A stretch of 64,000 nt of DNA from Nitrospira tepida (GTDB taxonomy: Bacteria; Nitrospirota; Nitrospiria; Nitrospirales; Nitrospiraceae), in assembly GCF_947241125.1 (NCBI RefSeq), contig NZ_OX365700.1:1954001-2018000 (forward strand), in the 5' to 3' direction. Each line of letters begins with the position of its first letter. Positions within the stretch are counted from its first letter, which is position 1. The position numbers and the translations under genes are program-made. The notes beneath the pieces were generated by a model, which was not told where the DNA came from, did no database searches, and saw only the letters and a list, made by a program, of their open reading frames with translations. Shown here piece after piece: positions 29,808 to 38,365 of this stretch.

Positions 29808-30947
29808 TTATGGATCAGGAGCGGAGATAGGGACATTGGCCAGAGCCAGCGCCGGAAGAGAGGTTTTACATTCGCTGACGACCTGGGCAAACATGGTTGC
29901 CAGGCGCGGGTCGAAGTGAGTATGGGCCTGCTGGACGACGTAACGGATGGCGTCGTCGATCGGGAGCGGCGTAGCGCTCGGGCCGTCGGAGGTGATGCGG
30001 TCGAACTCTTCAGCGATCCCCACGATGCGGGCCAGCAGCGGAATGCCTTCTCCTTGCAGTCCGTGCGGAAATCCCTTCCCGTCGTACCGTTCGTGATGAT
30101 AGGAGATGATCTGCCCGACCTCGGCCGGAATGCCGAGCGACAGGACCATCCTGGCGCCGATTTCGGTATGGCGCCCCAGCCGTTCCGCTTGCGCAGTCGT
30201 TTGCTCCGAGGTTTGAGCCGCTTCCATCCCGATCATGCCCAGGTCGTGGAGAAACGAGCCCAAGGCCAGGGATTTCTGCTCCGCCGGAGTCAGACTCAAA
30301 CGGTTTCCGAGCAGCGTCGCGTAGAAGCTGACGCGGCTGGAATGATTCAGAAGGTTCCGGTCTTTGGCTTCCAGCAGGCTGGAGAGCAGCGGCACCAAAT
30401 CGGCATAGTCCCCTGACTCAATTCGCCTCTCAGTCTTGTGCTTCGTCAAGGCCTGATAATTTTCCCGCAGCCGGACCCAGGCCTGTGCGGCCTGATCCTC
30501 TGATTGCCAGAGCGCCTGGCTGCCTGCGAGGAAGGCCCGGAGGAAATCGAGACGCTTTTTCTTGTCCAGCGTTTGGTTGATCAGCGTGATCAGCTCGGTC
30601 ACGTTGAAGGGCTTGAGCAGGTATCCCGCCGCCCCGTGACGAATGCCGTCCATGGCGGATTTCAAGCTTCCATAGCCGGTGATGATGATCACTTCGATGT
30701 CCCGATAGAGCTGCTTGATGTCCTGCAAGAGATCAAGGCCCTGCCGGTCGGGAAGCTTCTGATCCAAGGTGATGAGATCGATGCGGTGCTCTTGAAGGAG
30801 GCGGAGCGCGTCGCGCGCGCAATCGGCCGATTGGACATTGAAGAAGGGGCGCAGGATGACTTTGAGGGCGTCTCGGGGACCGGCTTCGTCGTCGACGACT
30901 AAAATCGTAGGTTTGTCCGTCTGCGAGGGGTCCTGGTTGAAAGGCAT
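29808..30947 (-). CDS. Response regulator with HD-GYP domain, probable c-di-GMP phosphodiesterase
   Basis: 379 residues. Receiver domain 1-125 with the acidic pair Asp19/Asp20, phospho-acceptor Asp62 (LITLDQKLPD), Thr90 and Lys112. A helical linker leads to an HD domain (GSFLHDLGMIG) and the GYP-type motif YHHERYDGKGFPHGL, so HHE and GxP are intact. HD-GYP proteins hydrolyse c-di-GMP. It is the last gene of a minus-strand signalling block whose first member carries a PilZ c-di-GMP sensor. A promoter-like TTGACA-17-TACACA ends six bases before the ATG and there is no ribosome site. Confidence 0.92.
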   Translation of the reverse strand: MPFNQDPSQTDKPTILVVDDEAGPRDALKVILRPFFNVQSADCARDALRLLQEHRIDLITLDQKLPDRQGLDLLQDIKQLYRDIEVIIITGYGSLKSAMDGIRHGAAGYLLKPFNVTELITLINQTLDKKKRLDFLRAFLAGSQALWQSEDQAAQAWVRLRENYQALTKHKTERRIESGDYADLVPLLSSLLEAKDRNLLNHSSRVSFYATLLGNRLSLTPAEQKSLALGSFLHDLGMIGMEAAQTSEQTTAQAERLGRHTEIGARMVLSLGIPAEVGQIISYHHERYDGKGFPHGLQGEGIPLLARIVGIAEEFDRITSDGPSATPLPIDDAIRYVVQQAHTHFDPRLATMFAQVVSECKTSLPALALANVPISAPDP

Positions 30948-32771: not shown

Positions 32772-35700
32772 TCAGCCAGTGGAATTCGGCTTCCGGGCGG
32801 TCGCGACGTGAAGGTGATGGGCCAGCGCGGGTTCGACCGCCGGCAGGCGGCCTCCCGCGGTTTCGAGCAGCAATTCCACCTGACGAGGCGTGAACCGCCG
32901 CAGCACTCCTTCCAGATAACTGCGTTGGAATTCGCCGAATGCCCGGAGTAATACGCTGCTCGACGGTCCCGCGCCGGGCGCGCGTCCGGAGAGCTGATGT
33001 CGGTACCAGGCTGACAAATCCGCGGCGGGCTGAAGGCACAACAGAACCAGCCGGCCGCCGGGAACCAAGACGCGCATGCATTCCCTGAGTGTCGACAGCG
33101 GGTCGGCGAAGTGCCCGAGCACAATATGGCAAAACACCGCGTCATAGCTGTTGTCGGAGAGGGGAAGCGGACCGCCGAGGTCGCCAAGGCAGAAGGACGG
33201 CGCCAAGGATCGATCCGCGGGCCAGGGTCGGGCGGATTCGCGGGACAGTTTGGCCTGGATGGACAAGAGAGTCTGGCGGCTTTGGATCAGCCCATCGCAA
33301 TGAAAGTCCAGACCTGTATAGGCCGGGCCATCCAGCCCGGCTGGACCGAGCGTTCGCTGGCGGTACGCGTGGTGCGTCAGGAGAAACGTGCCGAGGTGGC
33401 CGCTGGCGTCGCCGATGCACAGCAGCCGGCATGTGGAATCCAGAGGGGCCAGCAACTGGCAGGATCGTTCGAGCAGTTTCCAGTAGTCGGGAAGATTGAG
33501 GAGCGGGCGCGAATGGGTCGCGAAGTCGTTCCAGTTGCGGGCCCGCTCGGCGGACGAGCGACGGTGCAGGCACCGGACTCGCGTCAGTTCCAGCCCCGTC
33601 TCGAGCCGGAGGTCCTGAGTCGGCATGGGAACCAGCCGGCCCGCCTGCGGCGCGCGCGAGCCCTCCGTCAGACAAAATCGTGCGATCCTGTCGAACCAGT
33701 TGTCCGGACGGAGCGGTTGCGCGGGCGCCCCCGTGATCGGTTCCGCGAGAAAGGTCACAAAACGACAGGCCTCGCCGAGCGCCGCGCGGATCCGGTCCAG
33801 GATGTCCCGGTGCGCCGCGGCCTCTTCGAGCGGCGCAAAGATGCCGGTCGGTGCTCGAAGCCCTTCCAGATCATCAAGGAAATCATGGACGCCGGCCAAG
33901 CGCGACAAGATCGCGTCATGGATGAAACGCTCGGCGATGACGTTGAGGCCGAAGATGGTTCCCGTTTCGAAGTCCGGCTTATGCGCCTGCATCGGATCGA
34001 TGTCGGTGTGCTGGAGCCGATGCAGCTCCTCGTCCAGGTCCAACGGCACATGGAGCAGCAGGAGCCCGGCCAGGCGGGAATAATCCTTGAGGCCTCTGGC
34101 CGCGATGCGCCCACCGATTCCATGGCCGATGACGAACAGGGGGCAACTGGGCCAGAATTCCGCCGCAAAATCGAGGACGGTCGTAAAATCCATGAGCATG
34201 TCGCTGAGCGTCGCGTGCGGCGCGGCGGCGTCGCTCTCTCCCACATGGTTCGTGCAATCGTAACGAAGCACCTGCATGCCCTGGCCGGCGAGGTAGTAGG
34301 CCAGTTCCACGTACTGTTCCTTGGGATGAGCAAAGCCTGGCGTGATGATCACCAGCGGGGAGAGGGCCAAGCGGCTGTGGGGGGCATGATCGTGATACAG
34401 CGCGATTCGGCGGTCGTAGGGATTGATGCAGGATAAGAGGTCGGTGACGACATGCCGGACGGACCGTTGCCCGGCGTCATCCATGGCCGAGAGGACCTGT
34501 CGATTGACAAGCCGGAACAAGGCCTCCGCAGCCTCCTCAGGAATGGGTGTCGATCGCGCGCCATAGGTCCACTTGGCTTCCTGCTCAACGGAGGCTACGG
34601 CCGTCGACGGTTTCTCCCAGACGATCGTGATCGGCAGGGCGGCCGGATTATCCGATCCATGCGCCGCTCCACCGATCGGGCCGTTCGCGCCGATCAGCGG
34701 GAGCATGAGGTGAAACGGATTCTGCCATTTCGAAAGTGGCGTCGTGCTGCTGAAACCACATCCACCCAGGCTGATGTTCACGAGATCGAGAGAGACCGGC
34801 TCATTCCGGTGGCCGTCCTCGCGAGATGTGAGGATCGCCTGAAGTCTACAGGGCGTGCGAAAGTCCAGCCGGCGGTCGCCGTTTTCGATCGTCCAGGAAG
34901 CCTGGGACGATGGAGCCGGGGGCGGCGACGTCCGGAGGTCCCCGGTGATGACGATCTCCACCTTCAAACAGCCCGGTTCCTCCCGTAGGGCTTCCAGAAA
35001 GGACAGGAGCACGGCCCGCTGGATGTCTTCGATCGGGTCGAACAGGGCGCGTCCCGCGGATGGGCGGGCTGTATCGGCCAAGACCATCCCGGTCAGATGA
35101 AGAAACATGACGTCGGATGCCAGACGGATGGCAGCCCGGCCGGCCGGGACCGAGGTGGAGGATGTCGTAAGGTAAAACTGCAAGCCGGTCGCATCCAGAG
35201 TGGTCGTGATCCCGCTCACCGTCCCACCTTCGGATCGGATGTCGGTGGGTAATCGGTGAGCCGGGAGTTCTTGTTGGCGGAGGTCCGTGGGGGCTGTGTC
35301 CGGTGGTGAAACGAGAGGCTCGCTCGCCGCCGATTCAAACCGAGAAGCGGAGGGAAACTGGGGCACGGTCAGAGGCTCCGGCTTCAGCGGCTCGGCGCGG
35401 CGCGGCTCAGAAAGAGACAGGCGACGTTCTTCTTCGGCGACCAATCGGGTTTCGCCGGGCGCGCCCAGAAAGTGTTGGATTTTCTGCCACAACGTCTCGA
35501 TGGTCTCCCAGGATGGATCTGGCTGCGCCTGTTGCTCGGCAGGCATCGGTGTGACCGAAGGCCCGATCGTGGGCCGGCCTGGGCGCGGTTGCCCCACGCC
35601 GCGAATCACGCCTAGGGTGCCGAGGAACATGTTGGAGGGTGCGTAAAGGCCCTTGGCGCTGACGGCGGCGTGCAGACGGGTACGAAGGACGCCCTTGCGA

Positions 35701-36362
35701 AATTTCGGCAAGAGATGGAGGTCGAGGCCGCGGGTGGCCCGCGCGCCGGCCCGCCGTTCATTGAACCGTTGCTCGGCATAGCGTCGCGAGTCGGCATCCA
35801 AGAGCTGGCTGTAGTGCCGGCCCAACAGCTCCTGCGTTCCGTATCCGAGCAGACGATGGACGGCGGGACTGATGTACGTAAATTCTCCTCCGCTGTTCAA
35901 CTCGTAGAGAATCAACCCTGTGGACTCGGCGAACTGAAGGTACTGGCTGTAGGCCGGCTCGCGCATGGCGGGCCGCTCTTTATGGAGGAGCGCTTCCTGA
36001 ACGGCTGACAGCAACTCGTCCCTGAAGTCGGGAGAATGTCTGAACAACACGGCATCGGCTCCGCTCTGCATGGCTTGCAACGGACTCAACACGAAGCGTT
36101 CCGCATGGAGCACGATCCCCGCCCCTGGCGCCTGCCCGCGCAGGGTGCGGACAAAGGAGAGCCCGGGAAACGCGCCATGATCGACATCGACGAGGATGAC
36201 CTCCCATGTGAGTTTGCCCGCCCACTCGATGCTTTCCTCCAACGTGCGGACGGCCTCGATGCGACAGGCATCGTATTCTCGTCGAAGATCCTGCGTCAGG
36301 CGGATCGTCTGTTCGGCCGAATCGGCAATCAGCAGGACGTTTATCAACTGAAGCGAAGTCAT
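32772..36362 (-). CDS. Multi-domain regulator: receiver-like, PAS, two PilZ, LuxD-like hydrolase fold, SAM methyltransferase
   Basis: 1196 residues, apparently cytoplasmic. 1-128: receiver-like, with acceptor-type Asp in VILVDVD but Arg where the conserved Lys should be (LFRHS) and no Thr. 140-255: PAS. 256-375: disordered linker. 378-475: PilZ-like, degenerate. 497-625: PilZ with both c-di-GMP motifs, Arg498-x3-Arg502 and Asn529-x-Ser531-x2-Gly534. 655-900: alpha/beta hydrolase resembling LuxD acyl thioesterases (TPGFAHPKEQYVELAYYL, RYDCTNHVGESD), but the nucleophile elbow reads GHGIGG, with Gly748 in place of Ser. 970-1190: class I methyltransferase (LLCIGDASGHLG, then YDAVFCHIVLGHFADPL). 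No substrate can be named. The adjacent HD-GYP protein would deplete its likely ligand. Confidence 0.85.
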   Translation of the reverse strand: MTSLQLINVLLIADSAEQTIRLTQDLRREYDACRIEAVRTLEESIEWAGKLTWEVILVDVDHGAFPGLSFVRTLRGQAPGAGIVLHAERFVLSPLQAMQSGADAVLFRHSPDFRDELLSAVQEALLHKERPAMREPAYSQYLQFAESTGLILYELNSGGEFTYISPAVHRLLGYGTQELLGRHYSQLLDADSRRYAEQRFNERRAGARATRGLDLHLLPKFRKGVLRTRLHAAVSAKGLYAPSNMFLGTLGVIRGVGQPRPGRPTIGPSVTPMPAEQQAQPDPSWETIETLWQKIQHFLGAPGETRLVAEEERRLSLSEPRRAEPLKPEPLTVPQFPSASRFESAASEPLVSPPDTAPTDLRQQELPAHRLPTDIRSEGGTVSGITTTLDATGLQFYLTTSSTSVPAGRAAIRLASDVMFLHLTGMVLADTARPSAGRALFDPIEDIQRAVLLSFLEALREEPGCLKVEIVITGDLRTSPPPAPSSQASWTIENGDRRLDFRTPCRLQAILTSREDGHRNEPVSLDLVNISLGGCGFSSTTPLSKWQNPFHLMLPLIGANGPIGGAAHGSDNPAALPITIVWEKPSTAVASVEQEAKWTYGARSTPIPEEAAEALFRLVNRQVLSAMDDAGQRSVRHVVTDLLSCINPYDRRIALYHDHAPHSRLALSPLVIITPGFAHPKEQYVELAYYLAGQGMQVLRYDCTNHVGESDAAAPHATLSDMLMDFTTVLDFAAEFWPSCPLFVIGHGIGGRIAARGLKDYSRLAGLLLLHVPLDLDEELHRLQHTDIDPMQAHKPDFETGTIFGLNVIAERFIHDAILSRLAGVHDFLDDLEGLRAPTGIFAPLEEAAAHRDILDRIRAALGEACRFVTFLAEPITGAPAQPLRPDNWFDRIARFCLTEGSRAPQAGRLVPMPTQDLRLETGLELTRVRCLHRRSSAERARNWNDFATHSRPLLNLPDYWKLLERSCQLLAPLDSTCRLLCIGDASGHLGTFLLTHHAYRQRTLGPAGLDGPAYTGLDFHCDGLIQSRQTLLSIQAKLSRESARPWPADRSLAPSFCLGDLGGPLPLSDNSYDAVFCHIVLGHFADPLSTLRECMRVLVPGGRLVLLCLQPAADLSAWYRHQLSGRAPGAGPSSSVLLRAFGEFQRSYLEGVLRRFTPRQVELLLETAGGRLPAVEPALAHHLHVATARKPNSTG

Positions 36363-36929: not shown

Positions 36930-37376
36930 CTACCGGGGGGCGAGGGATGTTGCAGGGGAGTCGACGCGCTTCCAGGTGTAGGGCCCTCCCCATTGCCTCG
37001 GGGGGATGTTGTTCTTGCTGCCCACGCGGCTATACCACCAGACTCCCTTGGCTTCCGATCCGTCTTCGCCGAACAACACGTCGAACCCGCCTTCCCGGTC
37101 GTTGCCCGTTTGTTTCCACGTCCCCTCGCACCGGCGGTGACGGCACGTGGAGACGGTGATTTCGCCGTTTTGCCAGGTGTAGAACCCATGGCCGTCCTGA
37201 TCGAGGGTTGCCACGTAGGACTTGTCCTCTTCCTTGATCTCCCACTGCCCTTTGAGATCAGGCTTGTCGCGCTCTGGGGTCGTCGGGGATTCGGCGCAGA
37301 GCCGGTCCGGCTGAACAAACCAGAGCACGGCCAGCGCGATCACGGGCACAATGAAGGTCCACGGCGGTCGAGTCAT
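36930..37376 (-). CDS. Small exported protein of unknown function
   Basis: Start at 37376 (GAGG twelve bases upstream); the frame is open to 37436. About 148 residues: signal peptide (TFIVPVIALAVLWFVQPDRLCA), then a compact beta-rich domain (LKGQWEIKEEDKSYVATLDQ, GFYTWQNGEITVSTCRHRRC, GTWKQTGNDREGGFDVLF). The pattern of GxW-containing strands resembles small lipocalin-like or META-type periplasmic proteins, but this is fold impression only. Two cysteines (TCRHRRC) could form a disulfide. Confidence 0.6.
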   Translation of the reverse strand: MTRPPWTFIVPVIALAVLWFVQPDRLCAESPTTPERDKPDLKGQWEIKEEDKSYVATLDQDGHGFYTWQNGEITVSTCRHRRCEGTWKQTGNDREGGFDVLFGEDGSEAKGVWWYSRVGSKNNIPPRQWGGPYTWKRVDSPATSLAPR

Positions 37377-37438
37377 AGGTGCAACCTCATGATAGAAACG
37401 GATGACGATTGACGATGGGCCCTGATGGGGTGCCAAGG

Positions 37439-38365
37439 CTACGCGGCGGCCGAGGCCTTGTCAATGGATCCGGACCGGGAATCGCGATACGCGCAGACGA
37501 GTACCGTGACGTTGTCTTCTCCGCCCCGGCGGTTGGCTTCGGCGACCAATGCGCGGCACAATTCGGCCGGGCCTTGTCCGGCCTTGGCCGCCAACAGGGC
37601 GAGATCCTGGTCATCGAGCATCTTGGTCAGGCCGTCGGTGCAGAGGATCAGCAGATCGTTCGGTTCCAGCTCGGCCTGTGTGATCTCGGCCTCGACAGTC
37701 GGGTCCAAGCCGATCGCGCGAGTCAAGACATGCCGACGTGGATGGGTGGCGGCTTGGTCCCGCGTGAGCAGACCTCGGCGGATATAGTCTTCCACGAGAG
37801 AATGGTCACGGGTGAGCAGCCGCAAGGCTCCATGGCGGTAGAGATAGGCGCGACTATCGCCGACGTGCGCGAGGTAGGCGATCGGTCTTGGGCTGTCCCT
37901 GATCATCAGGACCACCAAAGTCGTTCCCATCCCGCGCAGGCTTCGAACGGCCGCGCTTTCCTCGAACACGCGGCGATTTGCCGCTTGGACCGAAGCTCGA
38001 AGGAACCGTTCGGCGTCCGCCATGGAACCGGCGGCGGGGCCGGAAGGAGGGGCTTCCGCCGCCAGGCGGCGGATGGCCGCAATCGCCAACCCGCTGGCGA
38101 CATCGCCTCCCGCATGGCCGCCCATGCCGTCGGCGACCGCCCAGATGCCGTGATCGTTCAGGACAAGCAGAGCATCTTGATTGGAAGCGCGTATGAGGCC
38201 GATGTCGCTGAGTCCATATCCGATCCATTGTCTGATGGGTGCCGTCATCTGCGCTCGTACCGCGAGAACCTGAAAGCCCGAGCCTTCGCATCGCGACGAG
38301 GAAGGACGGGAGAGTCTGTTCGAGTCTGCCAGAGTGGACGGCGGGGAATCCAGCCTTGATTTCAC
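37439..38365 (-). CDS. PP2C-family protein serine/threonine phosphatase
   Basis: The frame is 308 residues; the catalytic domain begins at about residue 40, where an ATG at 38248 is a plausible real start. Motifs of Mn-dependent PP2C/Stp enzymes are all present: GLIRASNQDALL, AVADGMGGHAGGDVAS, AHVGDSRAYLYR, SLVEDYIRRG and ILCTDGLTKMLDD. It removes phosphate from Ser/Thr residues and normally opposes a Hanks-type kinase, none of which is in the window. Cytoplasmic; no membrane helix. Confidence 0.92.
   Translation of the reverse strand: MKSRLDSPPSTLADSNRLSRPSSSRCEGSGFQVLAVRAQMTAPIRQWIGYGLSDIGLIRASNQDALLVLNDHGIWAVADGMGGHAGGDVASGLAIAAIRRLAAEAPPSGPAAGSMADAERFLRASVQAANRRVFEESAAVRSLRGMGTTLVVLMIRDSPRPIAYLAHVGDSRAYLYRHGALRLLTRDHSLVEDYIRRGLLTRDQAATHPRRHVLTRAIGLDPTVEAEITQAELEPNDLLILCTDGLTKMLDDQDLALLAAKAGQGPAELCRALVAEANRRGGEDNVTVLVCAYRDSRSGSIDKASAAA

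Follow-up and report, generated by a model that had tools for sequence, protein, structure and literature searches.

A PilZ, LuxD-like and methyltransferase-like fusion conserved in Nitrospiraceae: a possible catalytically dead, cyclic di-GMP-responsive regulator in Nitrospira tepida

We analysed 64,000 nucleotides of the Nitrospira tepida genome (contig NZ_OX365700.1, positions 1,954,001 to 2,018,000; hereafter the window), which contain an uninterrupted ATG-to-stop frame of 1196 residues on the minus strand (36362 to 32772), a member of family F1. An earlier reading made from the letters alone (the sequence-only reading) had described this frame, without giving a strand, as receiver-like and PAS domains followed by a PilZ domain, a LuxD-like hydrolase fold, and an S-adenosylmethionine (SAM) methyltransferase, and our analysis recovered the same order (Table 1). 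Pfam matched PAS (residues 154–253, E 2e-6), PilZ (496–620, E 3e-6), Hydrolase_4 (670–770, E 1e-12), the LuxD family PF02273 (670–732, E 3e-6), and Methyltransf_11 (1055–1107, E 4e-11), and gave a receiver match under the cut-off (10–109, E 1e-3). The weak domains are much stronger in orthologous loci (receiver 1e-15 and PAS 1e-14 in L056; LuxD family 1e-31 in L053). The window receiver departs from the receiver signature: Asp58 is kept, Thr is replaced by His and Lys by Arg, and the acidic pair is incomplete. This degeneration had been missed by the sequence-only reading, as had a degenerate first PilZ barrel, the loss of the hydrolase triad, and a damaged SAM motif I.

Table 1 Features of the fusion gene and its neighbours (positions in the window).
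Feature	Position	Strand	Basis
Family F1 fusion, receiver-PAS-PilZ1-PilZ2-LuxD-like-methyltransferase, 1196 residues	32772..36362	-	Open reading frame, Pfam, full-length homologues in Nitrospiraceae
Receiver-like domain, residues 7–125, degenerate (Asp58 kept, Thr to His, Lys to Arg)	35988..36344	-	Pfam, orthologue alignment, L056 receiver E 1e-15
PAS domain, residues 140–260	35583..35945	-	Pfam/NCBIfam
First PilZ-like barrel, residues 375–470, own cyclic di-GMP motifs lost, those of orthologues present	34953..35240	-	AlphaFold2 models, Foldseek to MrkH and MotI over both barrels, alignments
Second, canonical PilZ domain, residues 494–630	34473..34883	-	Pfam, AlphaFold2, Foldseek/VIA
RxxxR cyclic di-GMP motif (R498, R502)	34857..34871	-	Invariant in alignment
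NxSxxG cyclic di-GMP motif (N529–G534)	34761..34778	-	Alignment
LuxD-like alpha/beta hydrolase domain, residues 664–905; triad positions Gly748, Glu847, Thr877	33648..34373	-	Orthologue aligned to 1tht, structure match, alignments
Class I SAM-methyltransferase-like domain, residues 915–1190; motif I CIGDASG	32793..33620	-	Pfam, alignments, Coq5 match
NtrC-type response regulator, receiver-AAA-HTH_8, GSFTDA in sigma-54 loop	31215..32630	-	Pfam; 67–88% identical orthologues beside F1
Receiver-HD-GYP response regulator (RpfG-like)	29808..30947	-	Pfam; orthologues beside F1
Upstream gene, C-terminal half of family F5 (orthologues about 300 residues)	36930..37436	-	Fetched neighbourhoods
PP2C-like phosphatase, family F6, upstream in conserved block	37439..38365	-	Name read from sequence, no domain scan

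To follow the architecture beyond the window, 61 related genomes were searched, and 49 of them matched some part of the window protein, several over its full length. The full-length homologues, found in several separate genomes, align over ~1185 residues with 29–34% identity, a recurrence that exceeds chance. The receiver-PAS-tandem PilZ-LuxD-like-methyltransferase arrangement, for which the sequence-only reading had proposed a phyletic survey, is a family trait of Nitrospiraceae and hence not peculiar to the window genome; both the architecture and its conservation are certain. A fusion created by the assembly, the finding that would have overturned that reading, was rejected, since separate assemblies, single-contig genomes among them, show the full architecture and the gene order again. 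The same recurrence already contradicts the broader view that the frame is such an artefact or a loose fusion of domains without a common function, which we regard as very improbable even though Pfam scores the receiver weakly and relatives differ in their domains (REC-PAS-PilZ-methyltransferase in L047; minimal LuxD-methyltransferase in L161). The smallest form, a LuxD-methyltransferase of 549 residues, occurs in L161 and L162 from other classes of Nitrospirota. Many relatives have ~1400 residues, with an extra stretch between PAS and PilZ that we read as a probable decayed kinase because weak HisKA and HATPase matches lie there in L056. In L061 (925–2994), the same receiver-PAS head is joined to a shikimate dehydrogenase-like domain (689 residues). 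When plasmids were searched with an intact LuxD-methyltransferase, the sole match was the gene of an acyl transferase, evidently luxD, carried by an Escherichia coli plasmid, and a full-text literature search found nothing relevant joining PilZ with LuxD, thioesterase, methyltransferase, or Nitrospira.

The PilZ region was examined by structure prediction with AlphaFold2. The model of residues 375–640 alone (predicted local distance difference test [pLDDT] 76.5) matched the tandem-barrel PilZ receptors MrkH, MotI/DgrA, and YcgR, in agreement with the PilZ fold expected by the sequence-only reading, and the beta-barrel of residues 498–630 was recognised by Foldseek (MrkH, 7e-6; YcgR) and VIA (Z 8–9.6). 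R498 and R502 are invariant among 27 aligned PilZ regions, and N529-I-S-L-G-G534 fits [D/N]xSxxG, so that both cyclic di-GMP (c-di-GMP) motifs lie in the second PilZ domain at the residues originally proposed. In the first barrel (about 375–470), the c-di-GMP motifs are lost in the window protein and present in orthologues. MrkH, YcgR, and MotI likewise have a degenerate barrel at the N-terminus and then a canonical PilZ domain with RxxxR and [D/N]xSxxG; in contrast to these, the window barrels are embedded in a 1196-residue fusion with enzyme-like domains. Judging from the motifs and the model, the second PilZ domain of the window protein likely binds c-di-GMP. MapZ-CheR1 (PDB 5xly), another of the PilZ structure matches, offers a case of PilZ acting on a SAM methyltransferase, but it does so in trans, without covalent fusion and without a LuxD part. 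CheR1 methylates chemoreceptors.

When the model of residues 375–1196 (pLDDT 77.9; predicted template modelling score 0.72) was compared with PDB by Foldseek, LuxD, the myristoyl-acyl carrier protein (ACP) thioesterase of Vibrio harveyi (1tht; PF02273), ranked first (E 1.4e-12), and SAM-bound Coq5 ranked tenth. VIA-align superposed 284 residues of the window model on 1tht (Z 23.9, root-mean-square deviation 3.8). Both the LuxD-like hydrolase fold and the C-terminal Rossmann-like fold of a class I SAM methyltransferase (Pfam and Coq5 matches) therefore hold. The hydrolase fold is not specific to LuxD and names no substrate, as other esterases equal LuxD in VIA-align; the LuxD equivalog NF052253 (cut-off 420) was reached neither by the window protein (25.8 bits) nor by the intact relative L161 (117.8 bits). 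Intact relatives carry the LuxD catalytic residues: an alignment of L053 with 1tht spans 256 residues (E 6e-25) and matches Ser114, Asp211, and His241. All three positions are replaced in the window protein (Table 1), which further differs from LuxD in being fused to PilZ and methyltransferase domains and lying outside any luxCDABE operon.

Among 79 sequences, the catalytic Ser is retained in 56, and in every one of these the triad is complete and SAM motif I ([DE]xGxGxG) is intact. The 23 Ser-lost sequences form one clade that includes the window protein (maximum-likelihood tree; Shimodaira–Hasegawa-like approximate likelihood ratio test, 88). None of them has the triad, and motif I is kept in 10 and broken in 13, including the window protein, where it reads CIGDASG; both motifs of the second PilZ domain are kept in 20 of the 23. 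Decay of catalytic residues while the messenger-binding residues are held is the pattern that would be expected of an enzyme turned sensor. An active thioesterase in the window was rejected because the triad residues are lost, and the window copy is very likely without thioesterase activity and likely without methyltransferase activity. The window protein might instead still be an active enzyme, as the sequence-only reading had it. In that case the methyltransferase, rather than the hydrolase, would do the chemistry under a c-di-GMP switch, and the dead hydrolase fold would hold its substrate, an acyl or another small compound. The significant methyltransferase Pfam score, the match to SAM-bound Coq5, the retained motif II Asp (YTGLDF), and the 10 clade members with motif I would suit such an enzyme; nevertheless, with motif I altered from the form found in every Ser-type member and the whole LuxD triad lost in the same protein, we consider it unlikely.

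The downstream kinase genes differ between the two groups. Where the gene downstream of a Ser-type copy is readable, it nearly always encodes a kinase of 706–1009 residues with transmembrane segments, the exceptions being contig ends and a few copies without a co-directional gene. Next to D/G-type (Ser-lost) copies, every readable neighbour either encodes a soluble kinase of 422–464 residues or is no recognised kinase, and the kinase gene at this position is absent in the window, L051, and L056. Pfam confirmed HisKA_7TM for two of the kinases, and the membrane-segment counts of the others are hydropathy estimates made by script. A search for a seven-transmembrane (7TM) kinase elsewhere in the Ser-lost genomes gave weak evidence of absence, since the same search missed G046, which has a 7TM kinase in L062. 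In g18, a Nitrospira genus including Candidatus N. defluvii, an intact PilZ-LuxD-methyltransferase with a 1000-residue 7TM kinase occurs together with a putatively dead form of 1400 residues at the NtrC/HD-GYP locus. The presence of both copies in one g18 genome argues that the dead form has a role of its own, and makes function testable by comparison. In L168/L077 (one genome), a LuxD-methyltransferase and a 7TM kinase lie in one frame of 1641 residues, probably through a sequencing frameshift.

Genes related to fatty-acyl metabolism recur beside these proteins. L161 and L162 have in order a ketoacyl synthase (KAS) II gene (FabF-like, read from sequence), the LuxD-methyltransferase, and a 7TM-type kinase. 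A second kinase accompanies these genes, and the receiver-HD-GYP partner is also found in L161, which belongs to another class of the phylum. In L062 (7158–8756), a PilZ domain fused to KASIII (FabH-like ketoacyl synthase) lies between the fusion gene and the kinase; a family F38 member occupies the equivalent place in L047. An acyl-CoA-dehydrogenase-like gene (read from sequence) is upstream in L165–L167. In the window genome itself (G000:C1:1510041-1514712; L160:7994-12713), an acyl-ACP-reductase-like gene (TIGR04058, E 2.5e-23) directly precedes a 7TM kinase. Of 147 family genomes, 12 have a gene of this kind, in most cases with an adjoining kinase, and the pair looks as though the enzyme next to the receptor had been exchanged. 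The N-terminus of the reductase-like protein appears PilZ-like by eye only, and Pfam reported none.

Such neighbours would suit any lipid role. The ancestral LuxD-methyltransferase might have supplied the envelope or a polysaccharide with a methylated fatty acid or lipid, with the kinase sensing membrane state and controlling such genes, and the window copy would be a remnant. A likeness to PrsK/PrsR of exosortase-polysaccharide loci is seen in the partner kinase and NtrC (TIGR02916, E 6e-35; TIGR02915, 444 bits; all under curated cut-offs). On the other hand, the tightest association is with one receptor-like kinase gene rather than with a cluster for lipid export or polysaccharides, and the membrane part of the kinase is lost in the clade where the enzyme dies. 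We consider this origin quite unlikely.

Instead, we propose, at about an even chance of being right, that the window protein is a catalytically dead, c-di-GMP-responsive regulator derived from an ancestral enzyme. The ancestral form, which related genomes retain, joins a putative LuxD-type acyl-ACP thioesterase to a SAM methyltransferase, usually behind one or more PilZ domains. It would free a fatty acid and methylate it to give a fatty-acyl signal sensed by the adjoining 7TM histidine kinase, and c-di-GMP would tune signal synthesis via PilZ. That the ancestor was a signal synthase is put forward tentatively and with well less than even confidence. In the window clade, the catalytic residues would have decayed and the membrane receptor part of the kinase, or the kinase gene, would have disappeared from the locus; the PilZ site would have stayed, as would the outputs through NtrC and receiver-HD-GYP. 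The window protein may bind c-di-GMP through its second PilZ domain, integrate PAS input, and relay both to the NtrC/HD-GYP pair through contacts between the proteins, perhaps holding acyl-ACP or SAM without turnover. The sequence-only reading had c-di-GMP gating an acyl- or lipid-modifying methyltransferase, which does not suit the window protein with its lost triad and SAM motif I; as a catalytic reading, it fits the active relatives. The HD-GYP protein would, in that reading, act as a brake on the fusion.

Several observations weigh against this proposal. The methyltransferase fold of the window protein is intact, with a motif IV-like Asp remaining beside that of motif II, and L051, its closest relative, has motif I intact; loss of the triad is no proof that all activity has gone. 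L062 (Ser to Asn) still has its 7TM kinase, and HisKA_7TM kinases can sense other ligands. The association between Ser and kinase type amounts to about two independent changes on the tree and is not significant once relatedness is counted, an independent-pairs test having too few independent events.

Two known systems resemble the active loci in their parts. In Ralstonia, PhcB makes and PhcS senses 3-hydroxy-fatty-acid methyl esters (PMC6989110, PMC8578825). Compared by parts rather than sequence, the Phc system (PhcB/PhcS/PhcR/PhcQ) places a SAM methyltransferase together with a histidine kinase and with receiver proteins, as in active F1 loci, where a thioesterase, a methyltransferase, and a dedicated receptor-like kinase recall PhcB/PhcS. 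The kinase and fatty-acyl gene neighbours suggest that active F1 and the 7TM kinase may form a fatty-acyl signal synthase/receptor pair functionally like PhcB/PhcS, which was turned into a c-di-GMP-responsive regulator in the dead clade. However, LuxD and PilZ parts are undescribed for PhcB, the outputs of F1 are NtrC and HD-GYP instead of PhcA, and the adjoining cognate sensor kinase gene, present beside intact relatives, is absent at the window locus. The RpfF/RpfC/RpfG system of diffusible signal factor unites a fatty-acyl enzyme (crotonase-fold synthase), a sensor kinase, and a receiver-HD-GYP regulator in one locus. A like set is clearest in L161, but in this family the putative synthase is a LuxD-methyltransferase without the crotonase fold, an NtrC regulator is added, and the kinase is not RpfC.

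We also raise the more doubtful idea of an undescribed class of fatty-acyl signalling in Nitrospirota, in which a LuxD-methyltransferase would make a methyl ester-like signal under direct c-di-GMP control, a 7TM kinase would read it, and, in one large clade that includes the window protein, the synthase would have turned into a sensor of c-di-GMP only, still acting on the same NtrC/HD-GYP output. Acyl-homoserine-lactone signalling is known in nitrite oxidisers (PMC8553950). If the idea is true, nitrite oxidisers and their kin would gain a second, lipid-based signalling route, joined to c-di-GMP in one protein, and the family would be a clear example of an enzyme becoming a second-messenger sensor.

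The conserved gene order runs from ribonuclease-H-like, PP2C phosphatase, SnoaL-like, and secreted protein genes (names read from sequence) to the fusion, and on to the histidine kinase, NtrC, receiver-HD-GYP, and recN in the opposite direction (recN read from sequence). Between 36362 and 37436 of the window, the secreted protein F4 (about 350 residues in relatives) is absent, and only the C-terminal half of F5 is left. The HD-GYP gene lies two genes downstream of the fusion, as the sequence-only reading had it, and the conservation check proposed there showed NtrC and HD-GYP beside the fusion across the family (67–88% and 41–71% identity to the window neighbours, respectively). The sigma-54 loop of NtrC reads GSFTDA in the window and most orthologous loci and GAFTDA in L047 and L053, and the sigma-54-contacting GAFTGA is found only in L062. 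Since GSFTDA replaces GAFTGA, activation of sigma-54 by the window NtrC may differ from the usual mode. No site close to the window locus came out of a scan for sigma-54 promoters. The HD-GYP neighbour has HD and HHERYDGKGFP, with GFP for GYP and HDLGM in which Met replaces the Lys of HDxGK. HDLGM is shared with L051, and many HD-GYP orthologues have HDIGK and GYP.

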